From Bryoerythrophyllum caledonicum (lineage: Eukaryota; Streptophyta; Bryopsida; Pottiales; Pottiaceae): a DNA stretch of 64,000 nt. The notes under the pieces were generated by a model. The model saw nothing but the letters and a program-made list of their open reading frames with translations. It was not told the DNA's origin and did no database searches. How positions within the stretch are numbered: the first letter of the stretch is position 1; every line of letters begins with the position of its first letter. The stretch spans positions 21,443,022 through 21,507,021 of the forward strand of contig OZ020524.1 in NCBI GenBank assembly GCA_963971425.1, given 5' to 3'. The position numbers and the translations under genes are program-made. Below, one piece after another: positions 30,230 to 52,885 of this stretch.

Positions 30230-32339
30230 TCAGGTCAAGTTTCCCATCTGAGCTACCACAACACTGACCACCATGAAGAGCACATACCACGCGATCAAGC
30301 ACTTGCCCCACGTGCGCGTGAGGCGAAACCCGGACGCCGACACGACCGAGAGCGTCCCGAGCAGGTTCAAGGTGAGGAACGCGAACGCCACGAGAATGCC
30401 CAGGGTGTGATCCAACCGATAGCCCACGGGAAACTCCTTGAAGGTCCGCAAGCAGAGCGCGGATCCCAGCCCCACCAGCATGTTGAACATGGGTCCTGCG
30501 AAACAACCCGCCACCGCCATCGTGGGCTGCCCCACTCGTGCCACCGCGACGTCCGCCACCAGGTCGCCGATGGAGTTTCCCCAGGCGAGGACGGTTAGGC
30601 CGAGTAGTGCGGGGGAGACGCCGAGGAGGATGCCGAGGGCGACGAGGCAGCCGAGCAACTCGCCGGCGATGAGGGAGATCCAGAACACGCTCATGACGAA
30701 GGCGATCACGACGGCGAGGGAGTGCACTTGGGCCGGGGGGCGGTGCACGGCGAGGTAGTACGCGGCGCCCATGAAGGCGCCCTGGAGCAGGATGAGCAGC
30801 CAGATGGGGAGGCGGAGGGAGGGCGAGATGAAGACGATGTGGCGGTTCAGGGACACCAGGGAGGTGAACATGTAGATGAGGAGGAGCGGGCAGAGAACCA
30901 CGTTCGCGGTGCCGTAGTTGCGGCTCCACTTCGTGGGCTCGATCTCCGGGATGGTGGACTTGAGCAGCACAGAAACGGGGAGGTTGAGCGCGGTGATCAC
31001 CTGGTGAAACAACAGAAGTAGCTTGTCAACGTGGTTCATGGTTCGAAGCGGACAGGTTGTTGTCACAACAAGATCATCATGCTAGAAACCATACATACCT
31101 CCTCGACGCTGATGAGCTCCATGAACCCCTTCGACAGCGAATCCCAGCACTTGACCTGGTCTTTCTCGTCGTTGAAGGACAAGACATCCACTGTCACTTC
31201 ACCTTCTTCAGTGACATGTTCCGCATCAGCTTTTGGAGCCTTCTTCTCCTCCTCCGCAACCTCTTTCTTCTGATCCGTGCACAGCACCACCATGACGAAC
31301 ACCACGTAGAACGACACCATCCCCACGGCCTGCCAGAACGCGACTTCGCCACGGAGGTAAACGATGAAGAGCAAGCCCACCGCGCCGAGGTAGAACATCA
31401 CGTCGCGCACGAACGGCATGGGCTGCACTTGGAACGGCGCCGCCGCCATCGCCACGGACCCCACCACGAACGCCGACACGAACGTGCCCGCGCTCAGGAT
31501 AGCCCCGAATCCGATCCGGGAGTTGTCTCCCCCGATGGCCGCGAGCGACGCGAAGATGTCCGGCGCGCCGTTCCCGAGCGCCAGGAGCGTCACGCCGCCC
31601 ATGCTCGGGGTGAGTCCCAGCAGCGCCACCAGGCGGCGCACCACGGGCGAGAAGTAGCTCTCGGCGGTTTCGGCTAAAATATAAAAGGAGAAGAGGAGGA
31701 TGAGCACCAGGATCGGCACGGAGACCCACTTTGAGCCGCCGAGGGCGCAGTAGTGGAGCACGAGGTAGTTCACCATGCTGCGCCCGCTGTCGTGTGCGCA
31801 GTACATGCGCGCCATCTCGCAACGCACGAGGGATGGCTCTGCTGCGACGCCCTCACATTGCCTTCTGCGGATAGAATGTCAGTGACATGGTCCATAACCT
31901 AACCCTCACAATCGACAACCTAACAAAACACTGCAACTATGCGAGAGTCGCCGTGACATCCTTCAGATCCGAATTCCCAGCAGAGTGACTTAACCTTCTA
32001 TCACAATCATCAAAAAACCGAAACGCTCACATTGTCGACATTGCCAACTACAGCACTAAAAATCTTCACCACTGCAAAGAAAGGTCCTCTACAAACGCAG
32101 CTACTTCTCATATGTGAGCTCCAAACCCTAACCCACTTTTCGTACCTGTTTGTTTCAATTTGAGGTGGTGGTGCTGCTGCTGGTGCCTGAGACTCCAGCA
32201 AATTCCTGTGATGCGCGACGCTTTCTGCCGAGTGCGCTTCCTGAGCACACCACGAGTAGAACGACGCCAGGAGGAAAAACCCCACAATGCCGGCGCCCTT
32301 CACCTTGAACCGAAACGCGAGAGACGAGGTCCCTCCCAT
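30230..32339 (-). CDS. Cation/calcium exchanger of the CCX (NCKX6/NCLX-like) family
   Basis: Multi-pass membrane antiporter exchanging cations such as Ca2+, K+ or Na+ for H+ or Na+ across vacuolar, ER or Golgi membranes. Three exons: 32339-32146, 31864-31099 and 31000-30230, closing to 576 residues. A hydrophobic segment at about residues 14-30 is followed by a lumenal Cys-containing loop (CEMARMYCAHDSG). Two hydrophobic halves carry the paired alpha repeats: GNGAPDIFAS at 162-171 and GNSIGDLVAD at 461-470. They are separated by a charged cytosolic loop (KKEVAEEEKKAPK). The two-half organisation, motifs and length match plant CCX1-5. Which ion it prefers cannot be told from sequence. The start is the only Met before the first hydrophobic segment. 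Confidence 0.92.
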
Positions 32340-40796: not shown

Positions 40797-40808
40797 TAGT
40801 GCCCTTCA
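40797..40808. other. LINE target-site duplication, 3' side
   Basis: TAGTGCCCTTCA, identical to 52874-52885. It directly abuts the (GAA)n, i.e. the (TTC)n tail of the minus-strand element. Confidence 0.9.
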
Positions 40809-40844
40809 GAAGAAGAAGAACGCCGGTCTCCGAAGGTGCCGGCG
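40809..40844 (-). other. LINE 3' end: stem-loop plus (TTC)n tail
   Basis: 40821-40844 forms a near-perfect hairpin (CGCCGGTCTCC ... GGTGCCGGCG). It is followed on the element's sense strand by a TTCTTCTTCTTC end at 40820-40809. The same order occurs in the truncated copy at 38220-38263. It is probably the structure recognised by the element's reverse transcriptase during target-primed reverse transcription (inference). Confidence 0.7.
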
Positions 40845-40991
40845 TGAATAGAGTGTCTGTTCGTTCCACTACTAAGACCGCGCCCACTGGACAAGGAATT
40901 AGTAAGCTGGGACTACTTCCCTCTCTCGAGGGTAGACACTATGCAACAAGTAACCATAAACCGAGAACCATAGAAAGGAAGAATGGTAATT

Positions 40992-43900
40992 TCATGGGGT
41001 GTCTTGAATATCGGGGAGGGCTTGGTTGTTTTCAATTTTGCGTTTATGCAGGAGGATGGACATAGCGTGTTGTATGGCAATGATGTTGATATTCTTGAAA
41101 GTGTTTGTAATTGTATTGATGGGAATTTCGAAGATATCTTCTAGGACTTTTATAGATGGGATAAAGGTGGTGGCGCGAGCGCCGGCAGTGATTACCATAA
41201 GGGGGTCCACTTTCCAGCCAAGGGCATTGATGACATCTATTAGGGGTTGATATTTATTGATTTTGTTTTCGATTGTTACAGGGGAAAATCTATCATTGCA
41301 ATATGTAAATTCAATGAATTGAATGGTATAGTTTTGGTTTATGTGGTCGGGTGGGGGGTCTTTGTATGGGAGGCCTCTAACGCATAGTATGTCTGGTTTG
41401 AGTCGGGCATTGCAATGGCATCGTTGGGTTTCACATGTACATGGGAGTAGCCAAGATGGGACCGTGTTTTCTTGTGGGTTGTTGTTAAAGGTGTCGGCAT
41501 TCATGAGGATAAAACATCTAGATTTGCTATGGGAGGTGATTAATTTGCGGATTTCCCATACGGCTTTGTTATGTCTTTTGACAATTTGGGAGTGTATGTG
41601 GTGGTTTTGACATTTAAGTAGAACATGTAGCCAGGTGTCAGGGTCTGTGGATGTGCATATTGGACATGTTATAGATGGGAATCTTTCTATTCCAAAGAAG
41701 AGCTGTTTTCGGGCATTTCCCATGTATTGTCCGGTACGGAATTTAATAAGGCATGTTATTTGTGAGTCGGTGATGATTGGATTTTTCCAAAAATTTGTAG
41801 AGAGTTCATTGTCAATATTGTTGTTGTTAGTCCACTTTTCTATGTTAGGGAAGTTATCTGAGATTGTGTCAAGGTTATTATATAGGTCTTGTTTTTGTAG
41901 GTATTTGTTCAAAAATCTAATCGGGCCTTTATCAGGGGTGTCTTCTTTGGAGGGCCAATCTTCTTTTTGGAAGTAGTATGGGGTGGCATGGGCATGTTCG
42001 TGTGGGTCTTTGGCATTTTTGTATGATTTTTCCCGGCCCTCTTTTGCAAGTTTATCCGCTTGTTCATTACCATCAATATCGGCGTGGGCTCGAACTTTGT
42101 GGATAGTTGTGATTTGTCTTCGTTTTAGTATCATTTGTACCATAGATTTTAGTATTATTTGGTCGGGGTGGCTATTGTGGAGGGTCGGATGTGTAATTTG
42201 GGTGTTTAGTAAGTATAGTGCGTTAATGCAGTCTGAAAAAATGTGTGCTGGTTCATTGTTGTCTTTTGTTGTAACAATCTCTAGTGTTTTGTGGATGGCC
42301 ATGAGTTCTACTCTGAGGATGTTTTGTAGTCCATGCAGTCGTTTGGCTAGTTTGATTTCTTTTGAAGGATTATATATTCCATAACCGGCTTTTTCTCTAC
42401 GCCAATTACCCGGACTGATCTGTTCTGGTGGTTTGAAAGAGCCATCGGTATAGTAGCTATATGTAGGGTCAAATTTTGGTACGGTGTTAGTTTGGTAGTC
42501 TGGGAGGGGTGGAAGTGGGAAAATGTGATCTAATGTGTTGTTATTGTAGTTTAGTTTTGACCATTTTTTGCTTTTATTGACTAATGTTTGTATAGGTGTT
42601 GGTGGGACTATCTTTGTATATATCCGATTTATGTTAAGAGTTTTTGCTATGGAGGTGAGTTCGGTAAGTTGGTCTATGGTGCCAAGGGTTTGGTTTTGGT
42701 GGTGGACGCATATTATTTGTAATGTAGATGGTTCAATTCTCGGCTTTTTTAGCTCGGGTGGTATAGTAGGTTCTTCATAATGAATTGAGTCTGCTTCAAA
42801 TATTGCAAGGATGTGGGAGTCTGCAAATGGGCTTGACTGGGGATTAAAGTTTTGGTACCAATTTTTGTCTGGGGTGATAATGAGTGTAGATGTGTGTTGT
42901 GGGTCGTTTTTCGCAGCGAGGCGGGCCCAATGTAGTGCTTGTTGAGTTTCTTCTTCACTGTGGGGGTGAGCTATACCATTTCCGACCCATTTATAGTCAA
43001 ATGCTTTTCCCAGGGAGCCAAATATTTTATCTCTTTCAAAAGGTGAGTAGAATTTTTTTAATTTGGTGGAACATGTGACGGGGGAAGAGAAGTATGATTG
43101 TTCAATGTTAAAGGATGATATTAGTGAGTCTAGAATAGATGTGGGTATTGTGTATTGTGCATTTTTTAGGGGGTTATTTTTTGGGATGCGGTATTTATAT
43201 CTTTGGTATAGCCAAATTATTTCGGTTTCAAATGGTTGTGTAATTGGTTCGATGTTTGTAGGGGTTTTTAGTTTTCTATTGTATTGGTTCCATAGCCATC
43301 GGAGTCTAGTAGTGGGGATAGTGTGTAAATGTCGGCCATTTGCTTCACATAGATGGGCTTGATTGTTCTCTAGTTTTATTGAGTTCGAGGTTGTGATAAT
43401 ATCTTTTTCGGGATTACATTCCGTTGTATAGATGTTAAGGAGTGGGATGATTATAGGTGGAGTTACGGATCTTGAGTCTTGTAGTTGTTCTTGGGGGTGG
43501 TGTGTTTTAATGATTTCCGAGTAGAATTTATCTTTGATTTTTTTATAGTATTGTTTTAGCTTTTCGGTGTTGAATGTGGAGGTATTACAGTCGTGTCTTG
43601 GAAAAAGGTGTCTTTGAGGGACCCATTTGTTGAATGTATTGTTGTTGTGTTGCCATTGGCAAAGGTATTTTGTATAGGTATTTTGTATTCTATTGGTATC
43701 TTTTTGTTGTATGTGTTTGTGGCTTATGATGTTATGGACAGGGTATGTGGTGGGATTTTTGGTGATGTATGTTGGGGGGTGAGGGTGGTATGGGTATGAG
43801 GGGTTGGGAGGATGGATTGGTGGTAGAGTGGTTCTTGGGAGAATGTTGTTGTTGATGGTGATGAATTGGTCTTGTAGTGTGTAGGAGTGTGGGTGTATGT

Positions 43901-46900
43901 TACAAGGGATATTGCATGTATTTGGGCATGTTGGATGGCAAAATAGTTGTTTGGCAACATTTAGTGCATTCTTGATTAGTTTGGATGGGGTGAAGTGGAA
44001 GGTTTTGAAGTCCTCATTATTCATGATGTGTGTGCCGTTTGGTAGAGTGATTTGTTTTAGTTCAAAAATGTTTTTTGAGAGGAGTTTTTGTAAAAGTTTT
44101 TGGGAGAGTTGGGCGTTGAGTGTATTATGGTTGCATGTTTCTTGCCGCCATAATGTTTCTAATGGTGTTTGATCTGATAGGAAATTTGGAAGAGTACTTT
44201 GAAGGTGAACTTTAGCTACGTGTTTTAATAAGAAAAATGTACGGGTTATAGGTGATCTTATACAATCTGTTTTTTTAATTCTGGGTATATTTTTGGCACC
44301 ACCATATTGAGCAAGAACGTATTGTGTTAGTCCATTATATATTTTTCCGAGCCTACCTTTGTCATTTAGAGCGTTTTGTAGTTGTTCCCCGATACATCTT
44401 AGATAGGCATTTTTTAGGGAGAAAGCTTCAAGTCCAAATAGGTTATGTGGGAGTTGGGTTATTGCATTTGACATGCATTTTGGCATACCGCAGATGGTTT
44501 TTTGTATGGCTATAATTTTTTGGTCAAGTTTTTTAATAGCTGGCATAGAGTATGGTACTGCGTAGAAGCTGTATGCTACCCCTGGGCGTATTACGGTGTC
44601 AACCATTTTTATTTTTTGTTTCATGGTGGCCGGACATGTTATTAGTTCTTTGCATTGTTTAGTGAGTTTTGTTGTTGTAGTGTGGATTTGGATTTTCCAT
44701 TTTAGAGAGGGGACAAGATTTGTGCCTAGGTAAACATATGCTTCGTTTTGGTGTAGTATGGGGATTGGTTGACCGCGGTAGTTGATGTTAGAAGCTTGCA
44801 TTAGGGCTTTAAATGTGGTTGGGTTCAATTTGGATTTGTTTGGGCATCCTGTAGCGGCACATTTTGGGACGCCTACGTCCATACCAGTCCATTTACAATA
44901 TCTGTCGATTTTATCAAGTTGCGTTTGTATTGATTTTATTTTGTTGGTTATAGTAGCAAGATCATCGGCGTATGCGGCGGAGTTTATTGTGATTTGTGAT
45001 GTACCAAAGGTGTATCCGTTATTGCCTCGCTCTAACCATCTAAGTAGTGGTTCTAAAAATATAATGAATAGGTATGGACTAAGGGTGTCTCCTTGTATAG
45101 TGCCTCTATGAATGGAGATGGGTTTAGTTTTACCAAAGTGCTCACCGATGTAGTAAGTAGATGATTGAGAATAGATATTACCAATTAGTGCAATTGCATC
45201 TTTTGGGTATCCGATATCAGTCATTATTGCTAATAGTCGGGCGTGGTCTATAGAGCCAAAGGCATTTTTGAAGTCAACATATAGAACGTATATGTCTTGA
45301 TTTGTGAATCGTGCATCTTCTAGTGCCGCTATTATAGTTTGTATTTGTCTAGAGGTACTTCTCTCTGCTCTAAATCCTTCTTGGCTATCGTGTAGGATTT
45401 TAAACTTTTCACCATATGAAGATAATATTGAGGTAAGGGTACTGGTGTAGAGTTTATATATTGTATTGGCTAATGCTATTGGTCTATGATTTGGTAATAT
45501 TGAGGGATCTCCTTTTTTGTATAGTAAAATTGTTGCACTTGTTTTCCATGAGTTTGGTATTTGTTTTTGTTTATAGCAATGAGAGAAAAATAGGAATATT
45601 AATTTGTGAAATCTTGAGGGCATGTTTTTGAGTATTGAGTTTGGTATGCGGTCTGGTCCTGGGGCTTTGTTATTTCCGAGGTTGCGTAGGCATGTATCGT
45701 ATATGGCTCTGTTGAAGTATGTGTGTAATGGAGTTTCTGGGTCGCCTCGTTTGTCTAGGGTAAAACCATCTAGATCATGCCATGGGTATTGGCGTACTGC
45801 ACATGTGCATTTGATTGGATGTTGTGGTTGGTAGTTGCATGTTGGTACTGTGGGTCTATTGTTTTTTGTCTGTTGTTTGAATATTTCGTTTGCGATGTCT
45901 TCTGGACTGGTTAGGATGTTATTATACTGGTCGATGATACAATCTAGTGGGGGGGATTCAGAGTTTTTAAAAACTTTTTTATTTATTTTCTTAGGGCTGG
46001 TTTCATATAGTTGTCTATATTTTGAGATGGCTTTTTTAATATTGTCTTTTGAATATTTTGTAGTTACTTTTCGGGCTTGTATATTGGCATTTTTTGCGAT
46101 TAGTGCAATGTCTTTTATCCATGTGTCATGGGGTAGGTTTGGGGGCGGTGGGACGGGAATTTGGGTATGTTGTAGAGTTAGTAATTCATTAAATATGGGG
46201 TGGTTACGCCATTGTGGGTTATTTTTTACGATTCTAATTGTTTTACGTATTGTATGGTATGTGGTTAAGTGTTGTTTCCATATTTTTGAGAGTTTTCGGG
46301 GTAAGTAGCCTCCTTGTTGTGCTGTACGGTTTGTCATTTGTGGTATTGGTTGGGCCATGCAGGTCTGTTCCAATGTGTTAGAGATATTGTTTATAATTAT
46401 ATCTAGAGTGTGGCATGTTTCGTGCCATTGTGTTTGAGAGAGTTGATTATTATTGTCAAGGATGTCTATGAGAGAGTCAATTGATATGGAGTTTTCTTCC
46501 AAGAATTTTGTGTTGAATTTTTCTAAGTTATTTTTTGGGATGGGGTTGAGTATGCGTTTAGTAGTATTGTTTACGGTTGTGGGTGTACGACTTATTAGTA
46601 TCTTATTTGGGATGTTGAGTTGTATTGGTGAATGGTCTGAGTTAAGAATAATGTCTTTGTTTGTAGTGGAAGTGTATTGTGTACTGTTATTTGTATTTAT
46701 ATAAAAGCCATCTATTAGGCTCCAATCATTATAGTTGTAGCCACCTTGTCTAGAGTATTGTGTATCAGTGTTTATATAGGTGAAGTTAAGATTTTCTGTG
46801 AAGTGGCGCCATTGATAATCTATGGTTTGAGGTGGTGTATTATGATTTCCGTTTTGTCTTCCAATTAGTGCTATGTCTCTGTTGAAATCTCCACATAACA

Positions 46901-47315
46901 AGTATGTATGATTAGGGTTTTGATTTAGTTGGGATGTGATAGTGTTTTCTATATCTATAATAAATCTAGTATCTTCGGGGTGAGATGGCATATACATGTG
47001 AAAAATTATCCATGGTTGTAATGGTTGGTTAGTAATTCTAATTATTTGAAGATAGGGGGATATGTTCATTGGGGTAGGGATTTTTTTGATGTTGCCCGGG
47101 AAGGCATATTTTTTGTGTATTAGTGTAAGTAGGCCTCCTTGTCCTGGTGTATATGGTCTCCGTTGTTGGATACATCTGGTTAGTGCATGCGTGTTATTAA
47201 GAACTAGTTTATAGTCTTGGAATAGGTTTTGTATGTATTTGGTAGATTTTGTGGCGGATATTTTAGTTTCTTGAATGACTATTAGGGCCGGTGGTGTTTC
47301 TGCATATGTAGCCAA
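40992..47315 (-). CDS. LINE ORF2: APE-RT-chromo-like-MTase-like-RNase H-REL polyprotein
   Basis: 2107 codons without a stop; residue numbers count from 47315. The AP endonuclease covers 1-236 (QETK 15-18, CGDFN 141-145, SDHSP 226-230), continuing upstream through an in-frame TAG. The reverse transcriptase covers about 545-830 (YVDFKNAF with Asp681, QGDTLSPYLF, YADD 782-785). A Cys cluster lies at 1126-1138. A chromodomain-like stretch is at about 1216-1260 (KYLCQWQ ... KWVPQRHL). A segment at about 1395-1540 resembles PCIF1-type adenine methyltransferases (FSSPVTCS, IFGSLGKAFDYKWVG), with AHPH where NPPF is expected. RNase H spans 1618-1760 (D1624, E1670, D1695, H1744, D1754). The REL-like end has C1884, C1887, H1897, C1902, RHN 1914-1916, KPD 1973-1975 and E2002. 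Function: nicking target DNA and reverse transcription. The chromo-like and methyltransferase assignments are tentative. Confidence 0.9.
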   Translation of the reverse strand: MATYAETPPALIVIQETKISATKSTKYIQNLFQDYKLVLNNTHALTRCIQQRRPYTPGQGGLLTLIHKKYAFPGNIKKIPTPMNISPYLQIIRITNQPLQPWIIFHMYMPSHPEDTRFIIDIENTITSQLNQNPNHTYLLCGDFNRDIALIGRQNGNHNTPPQTIDYQWRHFTENLNFTYINTDTQYSRQGGYNYNDWSLIDGFYINTNNSTQYTSTTNKDIILNSDHSPIQLNIPNKILISRTPTTVNNTTKRILNPIPKNNLEKFNTKFLEENSISIDSLIDILDNNNQLSQTQWHETCHTLDIIINNISNTLEQTCMAQPIPQMTNRTAQQGGYLPRKLSKIWKQHLTTYHTIRKTIRIVKNNPQWRNHPIFNELLTLQHTQIPVPPPPNLPHDTWIKDIALIAKNANIQARKVTTKYSKDNIKKAISKYRQLYETSPKKINKKVFKNSESPPLDCIIDQYNNILTSPEDIANEIFKQQTKNNRPTVPTCNYQPQHPIKCTCAVRQYPWHDLDGFTLDKRGDPETPLHTYFNRAIYDTCLRNLGNNKAPGPDRIPNSILKNMPSRFHKLIFLFFSHCYKQKQIPNSWKTSATILLYKKGDPSILPNHRPIALANTIYKLYTSTLTSILSSYGEKFKILHDSQEGFRAERSTSRQIQTIIAALEDARFTNQDIYVLYVDFKNAFGSIDHARLLAIMTDIGYPKDAIALIGNIYSQSSTYYIGEHFGKTKPISIHRGTIQGDTLSPYLFIIFLEPLLRWLERGNNGYTFGTSQITINSAAYADDLATITNKIKSIQTQLDKIDRYCKWTGMDVGVPKCAATGCPNKSKLNPTTFKALMQASNINYRGQPIPILHQNEAYVYLGTNLVPSLKWKIQIHTTTTKLTKQCKELITCPATMKQKIKMVDTVIRPGVAYSFYAVPYSMPAIKKLDQKIIAIQKTICGMPKCMSNAITQLPHNLFGLEAFSLKNAYLRCIGEQLQNALNDKGRLGKIYNGLTQYVLAQYGGAKNIPRIKKTDCIRSPITRTFFLLKHVAKVHLQSTLPNFLSDQTPLETLWRQETCNHNTLNAQLSQKLLQKLLSKNIFELKQITLPNGTHIMNNEDFKTFHFTPSKLIKNALNVAKQLFCHPTCPNTCNIPCNIHPHSYTLQDQFITINNNILPRTTLPPIHPPNPSYPYHPHPPTYITKNPTTYPVHNIISHKHIQQKDTNRIQNTYTKYLCQWQHNNNTFNKWVPQRHLFPRHDCNTSTFNTEKLKQYYKKIKDKFYSEIIKTHHPQEQLQDSRSVTPPIIIPLLNIYTTECNPEKDIITTSNSIKLENNQAHLCEANGRHLHTIPTTRLRWLWNQYNRKLKTPTNIEPITQPFETEIIWLYQRYKYRIPKNNPLKNAQYTIPTSILDSLISSFNIEQSYFSSPVTCSTKLKKFYSPFERDKIFGSLGKAFDYKWVGNGIAHPHSEEETQQALHWARLAAKNDPQHTSTLIITPDKNWYQNFNPQSSPFADSHILAIFEADSIHYEEPTIPPELKKPRIEPSTLQIICVHHQNQTLGTIDQLTELTSIAKTLNINRIYTKIVPPTPIQTLVNKSKKWSKLNYNNNTLDHIFPLPPLPDYQTNTVPKFDPTYSYYTDGSFKPPEQISPGNWRREKAGYGIYNPSKEIKLAKRLHGLQNILRVELMAIHKTLEIVTTKDNNEPAHIFSDCINALYLLNTQITHPTLHNSHPDQIILKSMVQMILKRRQITTIHKVRAHADIDGNEQADKLAKEGREKSYKNAKDPHEHAHATPYYFQKEDWPSKEDTPDKGPIRFLNKYLQKQDLYNNLDTISDNFPNIEKWTNNNNIDNELSTNFWKNPIITDSQITCLIKFRTGQYMGNARKQLFFGIERFPSITCPICTSTDPDTWLHVLLKCQNHHIHSQIVKRHNKAVWEIRKLITSHSKSRCFILMNADTFNNNPQENTVPSWLLPCTCETQRCHCNARLKPDILCVRGLPYKDPPPDHINQNYTIQFIEFTYCNDRFSPVTIENKINKYQPLIDVINALGWKVDPLMVITAGARATTFIPSIKVLEDIFEIPINTITNTFKNINIIAIQHAMSILLHKRKIENNQALPDIQDTP

Positions 47316-47357
47316 AGTTTGTAAGCTAGGGAGAGCGGTGTTTAGAGATGATGCATT

Positions 47358-48014
47358 CTATGTGATGATGTTTGTATGTTCGTTGTTTGTGCTAGTGTTT
47401 TGGTTCGGTGGGGGGGAAAAAGAGGGGGGAGGGGGTGGGTGTGTGTATTCTATTATGGGGTCAAAACATTTTAGTGTTTCATTAATTAAATTATTAGGGA
47501 GGTAGGGGAATTTCTGTTTTATTGTGTTGCTTGTGGGGGGTGCGGTTTGACTGTATATAAAGTCGTATAATTCTTTATGTATTGAGTTTCCGTGGTTTAT
47601 GATATTTAGGTTATCTGCGAGAAATTTTGTATAGGGGTGTGTGGTGCGGATATGTCTTTCGGGTGGATTTGGTAGGTTTGATAAAGTTTGTAATAATGTG
47701 TTAGTCCATGTAGTTATATTTGGGTTTTGTAGATTTAGGAGACGGTTACATTCGTCTATGTTTGGGTGGGTGGTAATGACTAATGCATATAAAATATGTG
47801 TTGATGGATGTGTATTTTTTTGTTGTATATATTGGGCAATATTTGGGTGCTTTATGTTGTGTAGTTGATGTAATATGTGTGTGGTTTTGAGAAGGGGTGA
47901 AAATGTCTGAGCAATGTGTTTGTATTCCGGTTGTAGTTTTATGGTATTTGGTATGAAGTATAATTTGGCGTTTTTCTTATGCGGTGTGGGATGTCTTTTT
48001 AGTATATTAGGCAT
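47358..48014 (-). CDS. ORF2 N-terminal segment, cut by one TAG from the endonuclease
   Basis: A 218-codon open frame beginning MPNILKRHPTPHKK and ending NEHTNIIT before a TAG at 47360-47358. It is in exactly the same frame as the long ORF; reading resumes immediately as NASSLNTALPSLQTLATYAE. AP endonucleases of LINEs start with a WN motif (ITWN.xSL), so IIT-stop-NASSL indicates a Trp codon (TGG) changed to TAG. The segment itself has no recognised domain; the C-terminal part is Pro-rich (PPPPPSFSPPPNQ). Frame openness continues upstream to 48593 without a Met. Confidence 0.7.
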   Translation of the reverse strand: MPNILKRHPTPHKKNAKLYFIPNTIKLQPEYKHIAQTFSPLLKTTHILHQLHNIKHPNIAQYIQQKNTHPSTHILYALVITTHPNIDECNRLLNLQNPNITTWTNTLLQTLSNLPNPPERHIRTTHPYTKFLADNLNIINHGNSIHKELYDFIYSQTAPPTSNTIKQKFPYLPNNLINETLKCFDPIIEYTHPPPPPSFSPPPNQNTSTNNEHTNIIT

Positions 48015-48062
48015 GAGTCCCGGGTTGGTTTCTATATCTCCACTTAGTAATAATAGGATTTT
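48015..48062 (-). other. 2A-like ribosome-skipping motif (NPGL variant)
   Basis: Codons read KILLLLSGDIETNPGL, directly before the Met at 48014 and in frame with ORF2. The 2A consensus is D(V/I)ExNPG followed by P, usually preceded by a Leu-rich helix ending in SG or similar; all positions match except that the final Pro is Leu (CTC). In AP-type LINEs of animals and trypanosomes, 2A motifs occur at ORF2/ORF N-termini. One C-to-T change from CCC explains the Leu; canonical skipping is expected to be lost or weak in this copy. Confidence 0.8.
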
Positions 48063-48454
48063 ATAGTGTAGAGGTTTAGGGTGTTGTTCTTGGTTTTTTG
48101 GTTTGTGTATAAGTTTTTGGTAAGTTTTTGTTTTTATGTTCTTGTTTTTAGTATTTGTGTGTGTGTTTTTGTTTGTGGGATTTGTTGCGATTATGATGTT
48201 TTCTGTGGTTTTGAGTGTTATCTTTGTATATGTATTTTTTATAGTGTGTGTGTGGGCTTGTTTATAGTTTTTTAGGTGTGTTTTTGTGTGTGTCTTTGTG
48301 GTTTTGTGTAGGTAGGGTTGTGTTTGCGATTGTGGATGTGTGAGTGTGTGTGTTTGTATGTGTGTGTATGTATTATGTGTATTTTTGGTCTTTTGTGTGT
48401 ATATTTGGTTGTGTGGATGTATTTTTGTTTTTGTGTAGGTGTGTACATGTGTAT

Positions 48455-49276
48455 TTATGGTTTTATTTTGTGTGTATTTGTGTGTGTGTGAGTGTGTGGG
48501 TGTTTGTGTGTTTGTCTTGATTTTGTGTGTGTGTGTGTGTGTGATGGTATGTATGCAATTATGATGATTGTTTTTGGTGAGTTTGTGTTGGTGCTAGTTT
48601 GTTTGGTTGTGTTTTTGGGAGGTGTGTGTAAGAGGTGGCATGCGAGGTGGTAAGTGTTCTTATAAGTTGGAGGTGTTTGTGGGAGTAGGATTTGTGTGTT
48701 GTGTGTGTGTGTATGGGGTGTGTTTGTGATGTAGAGATGTCGTAAGGATGTATGAGTGTTGAGTGTGTGTATCTTGTATGTTTTTTCCCAAGAGATATTC
48801 ATACCGTAATGGTATATGCAATGACAATGTTTATAGATATGTGGGGTGAAACCCCAAAAACAATACATGTGTTCATCGTGAGGTCTCAAGGTCATGCATT
48901 TAGTTGTAAGTATTTTGTGATAATAGTAGAGAATGTGTCTAGAGTAGGAGGTGACTAGTGATGAAGAGGTACACCCTGTGGTAAGGCTAAGGTATACTGC
49001 AACTATAGTAGTGAAAAGATATGTCAATATTAAGGGCAAGATAGTGAGAGGGTGAGGCCTTTGGGAGTTTACATCTAGTTGTGGTGGTGTGGGGGGTACT
49101 AATATAGTATGTGTGAGAGTACTAACTAGCATATAGTAGTAACAAGAAGAGAACATACTAGAGGGGGTAATAGGAATGTTCGAAGAGAATTGAGGAGTAT
49201 GGAAGGGAGGGGAGCTAACCTTGTCCTTCCATGTGGTGCCGTATTGGTGATTTCTTCGGCTGGAGTCATTGATCAA
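48455..49276 (-). other. Inter-ORF spacer with a low-complexity open frame
   Basis: An open frame rich in Thr, His, Ser and Pro (THTHTH from CA repeats) ends at TAA 48457-48455. The 2A-containing frame opens at 48593 and overlaps it by 139 bases in the -1 frame. It might be coding, or only open because of CA-rich composition. No known domain. Confidence 0.35.
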
Positions 49277-50916
49277 TCCACGTTTGAGTGGTCTTCCAAG
49301 GCTGGAGTGTGTGGTGCCCTCGATCCCGTAATTTGTTGCATAGCCATCAATGCTGAGGTCATTAGCTGTTCCACATTTGATAACTTGGCCTATAGCTCAC
49401 TGGTGCGGTTATCGGTGTAGGCTCTAGTGTCTTTGATGATGTCTTCTCTAAGGGTAGAGAGTTCCTGACGCAGTCTTTTGTTGCCTGCATCTATAATGGA
49501 GGTCATTTCTGACCTGGTGATGCTTGTGGGAGCGGGGGTAGTTTGGAGAGACTCCACGGTGTTTACGAGGGCTTTGTTAATGTCATTAAAATCCCACTTC
49601 TCCAATAATGCGGTGGCGGGTGGGTCCTCTCCTTCGAGGCTACGGCGGTGGGGAGAAATCTCCACTTGGTGATGCCCTATGGTGAATGTCTTGTGAAGAA
49701 ATTGGCGGTAGATGATGGGGTTAGGGAATTGCACATTGGCACTACCGTTGTGCATTCCTCTCTGCTGCCTGTGAAACCATAGGGAGATGATATTCTTGGC
49801 CTCAAAGGTTTGGTGAACGGCTGCCGTGGTTTCTGCCACGCTCATAAGGATGGGAAGATGTGAGAGGGTGACCGTTAATGCATCCTTCTTGGCTCTATCA
49901 GCTGGAGAGAGGCCTCCAGAGCTACTAGCACGCGCTGGCATCACCTCATGTCGTGTGGTAATTTGGTGTAGCTCGAATTTCTTGGCTTGTTGAGGGGTTG
50001 GGGCAACAATGAAGGCGTGTGAATCTTCCTGTACCTTCTGCACATCTGTAATCTCGAATTCCAAGTTTCTCGAGAAACTGTTTGTCACCACATCTTGAAA
50101 GAGGGTGTGGGCAGTCACACCTTTGAGAGTCTCGCTCTTGATTCGCACTGATAGATTCTTCCTCGCTACTGCATGGAAAGTTTTACATACTTTCCCTAAG
50201 GAGGCCTGTCCTATGGGGTCCAAATGTAGAATGAAATATCTAGTGCCACGAAGGAGGGCAATAGCATCCACCTCTGGCCTAAGGAGGTGGAGTTTAATAA
50301 TTCCTGACCATATACCCTTCTGCCCCTCTTTTTTGACCCCTTTGCATAGAACGGCCATGGGGTCCATTAGGTTGGTGCCTAATGGGATGTGCATGTGTTC
50401 GAGTCTAGCTAGTGCTAGCCTCTTCACATCATCATGGTACATGGGGTGCGGTGGCAATTCGAAGTGAATTGCCACATGGAAGTCATAGGATAGTCCGGTG
50501 ATAGGGTGCGTAGGGATGTCGAAGGGTACCTGTGTAAGGTTGTAGTGTTGGCCTTCGATGTTGTCGTTGCGAATCGATGAATATTATAATTGCGGGATCC
50601 TCGGGTAAGCCACAGCGGCGCCAAGGGCCACCTGTGCTTCATCCTTGGGTACTCCACGCGTGATCATATCTCTAATACTCTCTCCACTGAATAGGGGCTC
50701 CTGTCCTACATCCTTGGCGAGCTTTTCCATGGTAGAGAAGCCTAACCAAAAACGAAATGAGGAGAGGTCAGGGATGGAGACTTGAATGGAGGTGGGATAG
50801 TTACCTCTAGCTTTCTTGGATGGGGTTGGGCCTCCACTTGCCATTGAGGCTAAGTCTTCAGCCTCTGTGATCTTCATGACTCCTGGATGTGGGTTCTCGG
50901 TGTCCATGGCATCCAT
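49273..50916 (-). pseudogene. LINE ORF1 (RNA-binding protein), disrupted
   Basis: The first part, 50916-50584, starts MDAMDTENPHPGVMKITEAE and ends IPQL-TAA. A shifted frame opens immediately after and continues (RNDNIEGQHYNLTQVPFDI, AIHFELPPHPMYHDDVKRLA ...) to a TAG at 49392-49390. It then runs on in the same frame (AKLSNVEQLMTSALMAMQQI) to a TGA at 49275-49273. So there is one frameshift and one or two nonsense changes. The end, LREDIIKDTRAYTDN through the MTSALMAMQQI block, looks like a coiled coil. No zinc knuckle is present. It is expected to be a nucleic-acid-binding ORF1p by position. Confidence 0.6.
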
Positions 50917-50974
50917 GGGGGGTTCTGATAGGTGTAGGGCGCTGGTCTGGAGTCTTTGAGCAGGGACTGATGGG

Positions 50975-51252
50975 CTAGGGTAGGTCGTTAAGGGGTGGGT
51001 AGGTCGCTAGGGGGTGGGGTAGGTCGCTAAGGGGTGGAGTAAGTCGTTTGGCCTGGCTGGGAAAGGTTGGTATGAGTGTGGGTGTCTACTAGGGAGGTCG
51101 TTAGAAGGGAAGGTCGTTGGGCTGTTTGGGAGAGGGTCGCTAGACTCTTCGGGGAGGTCGCTGTCCTCTTGGGGGAGGTCGCTAGCTTCCTGGGGGAAGT
51201 CGCTGGTCTCTTAGGGGAGGTCGTTGGCCTCCTGGGGGAGGTCGCTGGTTGG
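50975..51252. repeat. About 21-bp tandem repeats in the LINE 5' leader
   Basis: A GGGGGAGGTCGCT(G/A)-type unit repeats about eight times at 51090-51252, and a related GGGTGG(G)GTAGGTCGCTA unit three to four times at 50975-51050. The period of seven codons keeps the minus-strand small ORF open. It is comparable in position to the promoter monomers of some mammalian L1s (analogy only). Confidence 0.8.
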
Positions 51253-51398
51253 TATTTCACCACTTCTCCTTCGAGTAGCAATCGCTCTGTGAGTCTCCGC
51301 TTTTGCGTGTATAGGTTTCTGGTGTCTCTCACTCGCTGCGGGCTCCAGTACTCGCGGTGGACTTGTGTGTTCTGGACTTTGAGCTCTCGCTGCAGCAC
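51027..51398 (-). CDS. Small ORF in the LINE leader with TSPKR heptads
   Basis: 123 codons, beginning MLQRELKVQNTQVHREY. The centre holds five to six heptads of the pattern ATSP(R/K)(R/K)(P/L/T), encoded by the 21-bp repeat. S/TP(K/R)(K/R) motifs are known minor-groove DNA-binding motifs of histone H1-type tails. It could be an ORF0-like protein or a by-product of the repeat; no homologue comes to mind. Confidence 0.35.
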   Translation of the reverse strand: MLQRELKVQNTQVHREYWSPQRVRDTRNLYTQKRRLTERLLLEGEVVKYQPATSPRRPTTSPKRPATSPRKLATSPKRTATSPKSLATLSQTAQRPSLLTTSLVDTHTHTNLSQPGQTTYSTP

Positions 51399-52873
51399 TT
51401 GTGTGTACGAGGATAGTACTTCCTGCGGGCGTCCTTACTCACTGTGGGCTCCGGTACAACTCACTGTGGTCTCCAGTCCTGGGTTTGGTTCTTGGGTTTG
51501 GTTCCTGGGTTTGGACTCCAGTACGGATTTAGTTTTTAGGTCGTGTGTGTTCGCAGAGGGCTCTAGCGGTACTTCAATCCAGATCTTCAACGTTAGTCTG
51601 CGGCTTGTGTTTGTTGTGTCTTGTGCCTGCAACGTCTGTCTCCAGCTCCGGTCTTCAACGTCAGTCTTGATGTTGGTCTAGGTCTTCTATGTGTAGGAGG
51701 CGCAGGTCTGTGTCGATGCTGCGTGGGTTTACTCCTGTTGTGTGTCTTGTAGGTCTGTGCTAGTTGCTGGTCTACTTTGGTTTGAGTCTGGGTCCTGTTG
51801 AGGCTATGTTGATCCGGGTTGTGAGTCTGCTAGGTTATGGGTCTGTGCCTGCTGCTGCTGTCTGAGTCTGCAAGTTGCGAAGTCGATATGAGGTTCTATC
51901 TAAGTCAAGTTGATTGTTTCTGCAGGTTGGTGGGTTTCGTTGCGCACGGAGGAGCTGCTCTCTTCTTGGCCGTTGGTTGGAAGGTGCTGATTCGGTCTTG
52001 AGGTGTCGACTTGTGCTCTTGCAGCGTCTTCTATGTTCCTGCGAGATTCTAGGAAAAATGTGCAGCGCTTCCGCGCTCTATTGTGGATGTAGTGAATTCT
52101 ATATGCGTGCACATGGTTATTGTGATTTAGGGTTAGGTTATATGTATTAGGTTAGTCTATTGTTGTACCTACTGGTGATCTATGTTATGTGCGAGGTTGA
52201 TTCAAGAAGATAATTGTAAGACAGAGGGTGTTGACTAATGGTGTGTGAGCTGCATATCATATGTGTCAATCAAAAAATTTGAGACGTTTTGGAGAACTTA
52301 CAAGGGTGTTTCTGTGTCTTGTTGCTGCAATATGGGCTTGTGCGTTTGTTGTTGCTGATTGTGGTGCTCTCTAGGGCTGAGGGTGCGATTGCTTGATCTC
52401 CGTGTGCCAATGTTGGACGATGTGCTTCTGTTGTCTTCGGTTGGTCTTGTCTTCCTTGCTATACTTGTAAGATAAATCCTTGGGTTGGGGAGGTGTGTCG
52501 ACTTAACAGAGAAGGCTTACAGATCTACTATCCAACATTCAGATCTAAGGCAGAACTTGTGGCACGAGGTTAAGTCAGATCTATGCGCCAACACTTGCTC
52601 CCAGGCTTCTCAGTAAACGCACATCATAGATCGAATCACTCATACATTCACTCAAACTCCAGATCTGATGTTTGTGAGCTCTTTCCAACACGGTCTGCTT
52701 CCCGAGCCTCTCTTCTCAGATCTAAGATGTGCGGCGAGCTCTCACCAAAATCAGCCACCTTTTGGTGCCCACAGTCTTATTTCTGAATCTAAGTCTCACC
52801 TCCCCTCACCAAGAATTTCGGAGCTCACTCAGTCCTCATTCCAGCCCTCGTAAGCCCCGTGAAAAACTCATTA
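51399..52873 (-). other. LINE 5' untranslated leader
   Basis: Sequence between the 5' target duplication and the first small ORF. It has GT-rich minus-complement composition and several repeated AGATCTA motifs (52520-52560, 52575, 52722). No coding frame is supported. Assignment to the element rests on the flanking duplication. Confidence 0.6.
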
Positions 52874-52885
52874 TAGTGCCCTTCA
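52874..52885. other. LINE target-site duplication, 5' side
   Basis: TAGTGCCCTTCA, identical to 40797-40808. Confidence 0.9.

Follow-up and report, generated by a model that had tools for sequence, protein, structure and literature searches.

In this study, we analysed a window of 64,000 nucleotides (nt) from Bryoerythrophyllum caledonicum (GenBank assembly GCA_963971425.1, contig OZ020524.1, positions 21,443,022 to 21,507,021), whose own numbering is used throughout and which contains, on its minus strand, an entire copy of a long interspersed nuclear element (LINE). The original prediction, made from the letters of the window, had placed the ends of this element at 40809 and 52873, and both are correct, as the target site duplication TAGTGCCCTTCA abuts the two sides. 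We read the locus as an old member of an autonomous LINE family that encodes two endonucleases, was active recently and is of the Dualen/RandI type, and give this reading, together with the integration scheme proposed below, a probability of roughly 0.78. The features are listed from the 5' to the 3' side of the element.

52874..52885: target site duplication on the 5' side, 12 bp, TAGTGCCCTTCA
40809..52873, minus strand: entire LINE copy of 12,065 bp, flanked at both ends by target duplications and alignable to an intact copy
52842..52873, minus strand: copy-specific 5' leader of about 32 nt, inner border uncertain
49276..50916, minus strand: remnant of open reading frame 1 (ORF1) with stops at codons 111 and 509 (tblastn, 90% to ORF1 of the intact copy)
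48015..48044, minus strand: 2A-like site SGDIETNPGL, with P changed to L in the window copy
47358..47360, minus strand: TAG nonsense codon within the endonuclease motif NIITWN
46611..47375, minus strand: apurinic/apyrimidinic-type endonuclease (APE) region with approximate borders (Pfam and motifs)
44772..45509, minus strand: reverse transcriptase (RT), RVT_1 (Pfam)
43566..43778, minus strand: chromodomain-like stretch, sub-threshold (Pfam)
42861..43265, minus strand: PCIF1-like domain with HPHS at the NPPF position (Pfam PF12237, 2e-11)
42033..42458, minus strand: RNase H (Pfam)
41568..41666, minus strand: CCHC finger and RHN of a putative R2-type endonuclease region (motifs, profile search)
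41226..41399, minus strand: KPD..E stretch of the putative restriction-like endonuclease (RLE) (motifs; core unaligned to R2 in the profile search)
40821..40844, minus strand: 3'-terminal hairpin CGCCGG..CCGGCG (predicted fold -13.7 kcal/mol, z -3.2)
40809..40820, minus strand: (TTC)n 3' tail
40797..40808: target site duplication on the 3' side, 12 bp, TAGTGCCCTTCA

The 2107-codon frame that had been described for this element (47315-40992, minus strand) carries everything claimed for it. QETK, CGDFN and SDHSP of the APE, YVDF and YADD of the RT, the C-x2-C-x9-H-x4-C finger, RHN and KPD..E were all located, and the RNase H residues D1624, E1670, D1695, H1744 and D1754 correspond to the invariant columns D1858, E1904, D1929, H1978 and D1988 in the numbering of the intact copy. 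Pfam recognizes RVT_1 (2.8e-28) and RNase_H (3e-12) in this frame and, weakly and below its threshold, Exo_endo_phos (1e-3). The frame is a fragment of a longer ORF, which extends upstream of the TAG at 47358-47360; at this codon, intact copies have the W of the first APE motif, NIITWN. With the stop in the APE motif, two stops in ORF1 and the change of NPGP to NPGL, the window copy is dead. The proposal that all catalytic residues are preserved and that the lineage may be active does not hold for this copy, nor for its nearest kin L002-L005, which also carry stops, while it does hold for the wider family with its near-identical open copies. These lesions had been overlooked, as had the 2A site, the PCIF1-like domain and the chromodomain-like stretch. 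The element also contains tandem repeats of 20-42 bp in its 5' region (50978-51249).

A search of the whole genome gave at least 22 scored copies with 85-100% protein identity, and a chance origin of the observation is excluded because of these 22 loci and of a domain order that is shared by relatives elsewhere. In the group L009-L020, which comprises twelve loci, ORF2 is open and the identity over 7,026 nt is at least 99.9%; because L013 and L016 share a flank, these loci represent eleven distinct insertions. L021 and L022 are 100.0% identical to each other and 90.4% identical to this young group. The nearest relative of the window copy is L002, with 95.2% identity, whereas its identity to the young group is 82.6% (82.5% for one member). 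The matched part is stop-free in L006 and in L009-L022, and contains one to four stops in L002-L005. The evidence of recent activity therefore concerns the sister subfamily, with its near-identical open copies, and does not extend to the window copy's own subfamily. Two copies compared end to end are 99.78% identical over 12.6 kb and have identical ORF2 frames of 2809 amino acids (aa), and the ORF1 of the intact copy (one copy read) has 546 aa. Two side observations concern the surroundings of such copies: in the L011/L026 flanks (contig C15) a young copy sits within a copia-like protease, NNWYLDSGATTH by eye, and L065 (contig C16, first 200 bases) appears by eye to open within the 3' coding part of another, diverged element copy.

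Selection was measured as the Nei-Gojobori ratio of nonsynonymous to synonymous change (dN/dS) for six pairs of copies, two of which include the window copy and one L002 (one stop), the other three being between stop-free copies. The ratio was 0.09-0.11 for the whole frame, 0.06-0.11 for the APE, 0.05-0.08 for the RT, 0.05-0.13 for RNase H, 0.05-0.09 for the RLE region, 0.09-0.14 for the PCIF1-like domain and 0.02-0.22 for the chromodomain-like stretch. Both nuclease domains are under purifying selection and similarly constrained; together with the near-identical open copies, this makes the role of each nuclease testable.

The claim of two endonucleases in one element is supported by the motifs, by the selection on both domains, by a profile match of the APE region to the LINE-1 endonuclease and by an RLE profile that picks out R2 proteins. 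When this last profile, made from the last part of eight rows, was searched against the whole PDB, the top matches were R2 proteins (E 2.9e-4, 4.8e-4 and 0.022) and the next match stood at 0.7; PD and a following D/E are kept in 8 of 10 rows. Motifs and profile support the assignment of the C-terminal region to the R2-type restriction-like endonucleases, with a presumed PD-(D/E)XK fold. Several points weigh against it. The R2 score of the best chain adds up two pieces that are each weak (independent E-values 0.29 and 25), which cover the finger and RHN and a part past the core, so that the RLE core itself is unaligned. The canonical lysine is absent from the region, neither PD nor the D/E after it is found in the two rows P0006 and P0007, and a single-sequence search with the region gave no relevant match. 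In the RT, R2 chains scored 115, 101 and 101 bits and LINE-1 about 71; a further point against is that the Bombyx-type R2 chains (8gh6 and 8ibw), at 60 and 56 bits, come after LINE-1. A search with the full profile ranks these groups alike, and by such scores the RT is closer to some R2 than to human L1, though not to every R2. The ranking of LINE-1 above the Bombyx-type chains would suit a plant L1 that ends in a zinc knuckle and lacks a second nuclease, as would an RLE region that is known from sequence alone and whose core does not align to R2. Such an element is hard to reconcile with profile matches to R2 only, with the PD..E motifs, with top RT matches that are other R2 chains and with 3' ends that read without a poly(A) tail, and we regard it as very unlikely.

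The Dualen/RandI reading can be compared with what is known of R2, whose chains are the top PDB matches for the CCHC/RHN region as well as for the RT. R2 elements are not known to carry an APE, whereas one is present here, and the placing of the Bombyx-type chains under LINE-1 is a second difference. According to passages of PMC7650587, R2 has a single insertion site in 28S ribosomal DNA (rDNA), while the flanks of our copies vary from one to the next, although no comparison of flanks with rDNA was made; site specificity was rejected on the variation of the flanks. Dualen/RandI elements, as far as the consulted parts of PMC4640811 and PMC3636483 describe them, combine an APE and a restriction-like endonuclease within one element, have RNase H (PMC4640811) and, under the name RandI, end in short repeats instead of poly(A) (PMC3747384); they have been reported from green algae (PMC4438587) and cryptophytes (PMC12747079). 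The element shares with those of Chlamydomonas and related green algae the APE before the RT, a C-terminal RLE region recognized by motifs and profile, RNase H and a short-repeat tail. The passages seen of these descriptions do not mention a PCIF1-like domain, a chromodomain-like stretch, a 2A site or varied leaders. Membership in Dualen/RandI is likely, judged by architecture and descriptions; named relatives in Haematococcus and Pleodorina are close in the RT, and many of them have the same architecture. Elements of this type have been taken as evidence that AP-type LINEs arose through replacement of an R2-type nuclease (PMC4640811, in the part consulted).

Protein searches for these relatives returned 2, 7 (query included) and 423 proteins, and among the best 120 of the 423, the named rows were Haematococcus lacustris (21) and Pleodorina starrii (1). 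Domains were counted with iterated home-made profiles on 129 proteins, including the window piece and the intact copy, and were found as follows: APE in 105, PCIF1-like in 112, RNase H in 101, RLE in 99 and chromodomain-like in 84. With the window piece excluded, an APE is present in all 99 proteins with at least 500 aa before the RT, and an RLE in 97 of the 102 with at least 900 aa after it. The same profiles gave 20 APE, 17 PCIF1-like and 15 RLE matches among the 21 Haematococcus rows. Some relatives within the best 120 of 423 add PHD, Ulp1, OTU, Josephin or DNA cytosine methyltransferase domains. RT trees were built from 129 rows (quick, human L1 as outgroup) and 51 rows (careful), with rows picked by similarity to the element and RT pieces below 330 aa, P0002 and P0091 (Pleodorina), omitted. 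Full support separates 126 rows and 49 rows, respectively, from R2, as expected for similarity-chosen rows. The element falls with the Haematococcus rows (21 in the larger tree, 4 in the smaller) and apart from R2, among rows so chosen and without published Dualen sequences; its lineage groups with P0010, P0011, P0029 and P0121 in the 51-row tree (support 84/90). For 5 loci, matches to viral contigs lay in the RNase H part only.

The least expected part of the protein resembles PCIF1 (CAPAM), the cap adenosine methyltransferase. In the window frame, PF12237 (PCIF1_WW) scores 44.3 bits against a gathering score of 31.1 (2e-11), and the PDB entry 6irv (PCIF1) is matched at 1.9e-7 by profile and at 0.017 by single sequence. 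The catalytic motif of PCIF1 is NPPF, and the alignment to 6irv places this tetrad at the motif position; it is absent from all 114 aligned element stretches. No [N/D]PP[F/Y/W] was found in these 114, four of which are gapped at the motif. The commonest variant is NPEY (35/114), and NVPA occurs in 17/114; the window lineage has HPHS or HPHN, and near misses such as NPPP, NPPG and SPPF occur. The domain is nevertheless found in all 102 proteins in which 900 aa or more follow the RT (intact copy included, window piece excluded), although, by Pfam alone, PF12237 is listed for 48 of the best 120 of 423 relatives and for no row among the 21 from Haematococcus. Because the domain is retained and constrained while its motif varies, it has probably lost catalysis and may serve as an RNA-binding, perhaps cap-binding, module. 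A search of the open-licence literature found no paper that ties PCIF1 to a LINE protein. Two relatives, P0029 and P0121, carry a cytosine DNA methyltransferase domain (PF00145) alongside PCIF1_WW. An NCBI protein of 3608 aa, P0009, contains a 2A site; ahead of its PCIF1-like domain, a Ulp1-like protease and a PHD-like finger can be made out by eye, neither of which Pfam listed.

In the window fragment, the chromodomain-like stretch scores 19.7 bits (8e-4), short of the Pfam gathering score of 25.1. Chromo is listed for seven of eight hand-picked fragments, all under the cut-off, and an iterated profile rose from 16 to its 84 matches of 129, a soft number for so varied a region. The 2A site is better defined: NPGP is present in 21 of 22 loci, the exception being the window copy, and ExNPGP in 18 of 129 proteins. 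L1Tc and certain sea urchin elements are LINEs with 2A peptides, and our element is like them in having a DxExNPGP site ahead of the ORF2 enzyme; it differs in having two endonucleases and, before the 2A, a low-complexity linker free of stops. Between the ORF1 stop and the 2A of one intact copy, the frame of ORF2 has no stop in 423 codons, against 18.8 expected in shuffles, none of 500 shuffles was stop-free, and the other two frames have 22 and 12 stops. The region upstream of 2A is open throughout 257-258 residues in 17 of 22 loci. A dN/dS of 0.57-0.90 upstream of 2A (15 pairs) weighs against our reading, and we infer from the open frame and these ratios that the linker is translated while its sequence is hardly constrained.

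At the 3' end, 21 copies (L004 and L005 included; no 3' end was found for L008) have a CCGG-type inverted repeat followed by a (TTC)n or TTCTCT-like tail; the repeat was judged by eye and is imperfect in some copies, and for L004 and L005 the reading covered its 3' arm. All five 3' ends tested are predicted to fold as hairpins (z -2.2 to -7.4), no poly(A) tail was present among 19 ends, and Rfam gave no match up to E 0.5 at 11 loci. The 5' ends were inspected in 21 of 22 copies (not L016), and 17 were tabulated, in which the target duplications measure 9-13 bp. The first three target sites seemed, by eye, to share an ACTAC, which was no longer common to the sites once more copies were added. 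In all 17, a leader that differs from copy to copy lies between the 5' target duplication and the element, with lengths of 1, 6, 12, 15, 15, 16, 17, 19, 19, 20, 20, 21, 22, 22, 32, 38 and 68 nt (inner borders uncertain for L006 and the window copy). Left out of the table were L007 (duplication present, inner border unclear), L008 (nothing found), L013 and L019; it counts against our reading that L013, which is 5'-truncated, has no target duplication and L019 no clear one.

These differing leaders are the oddest and least explained of our results. They could be filler added by end-joining repair once a LINE had inserted in the usual way, the filler being either untemplated or taken from DNA far away: fillers are left by end joining in plants, and the spread from 1 to 68 nt would fit. 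Templated filler was tried and rejected for the near surroundings, since the matches of all eight tested leaders to their respective ±1 kb flanks and to the element were no better than those of shuffles, and leaders of at least 14 nt had a best other match of just 12-13 nt in 360 kb of sequence. Filler in nearly all copies, with a tight length cluster, would moreover be unusual, and we hold this explanation to be possible, if rather unlikely. Were the leaders 5' transductions from various source copies under flanking promoters, no new enzyme step would be required; however, copies that are 99.9% identical have leaders that do not nest within one another and have at most 10 nt in common (L010/L020), so that each would need a separate source, which makes this explanation improbable.

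In the scheme that we propose for the dual-endonuclease element, ORF1 and ORF2 would be translated through the low-complexity linker and separated at the 2A site. The ORF2 protein would bind the 3' hairpin, one nuclease, probably the APE, would nick the target, and the RT would prime at this nick; the second strand would be cut by the other nuclease, the RLE. On reaching the RNA 5' end, the RT would jump to a short RNA, which would give the copy-specific leader. The PCIF1-like domain may act here by binding RNA, perhaps a cap, and the chromodomain-like part may tether the element to chromatin. Template jumping and the order of the cuts are steps that we infer, which counts against the scheme. 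A cap-enzyme fold that lacks its motif in every long-enough relative examined and short, differing leaders at most 5' junctions point to an unknown 5'-end step in LINE integration.

A bolder version of this step would be cap-snatching, in which the PCIF1-like domain, as a catalytically dead cap grip, holds a host mRNA by its cap, one of the element's nucleases cleaves this mRNA about 15-22 nt downstream of the cap, and the resulting leader joins the 5' end of the new copy; if true, every new copy would gain a new 5' end. The host ordinarily makes the RNA of LINEs, so that it is not evident why an element would need such a step. The leaders do differ, 11 of 17 are 15-22 nt long and the domain is present in 102 of 102 long-enough proteins, yet leaders of 1, 6 and 68 nt fit poorly, and a purine as first base in just 12 of 17 is a weak preference. 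The endonuclease of a cockroach R2 is reported to resemble cap-snatching nucleases in HHpred, a likeness which its authors, in the part of PMC7650587 consulted, call unexpected. On balance, we judge cap-snatching to be quite improbable and retain the template jump within the Dualen/RandI reading.

Elsewhere in the window, two adjoining frames at 30230-31827 match sodium/calcium exchanger domains and probably belong to one gene with a break or an intron. The telomere repeat CCCTAAA is found on contigs C1 and C3; such telomeres fit many plants and algae. Of the contigs that the analysis covered, 13 are as long as chromosomes. Contig C894 (115,000 bp; GC 0.23 in the 200 bases read) may be plastid, and the first 200 bases of L064 (contig C14, 22 Mb) resemble bacterial coding DNA by eye, a possible contamination.

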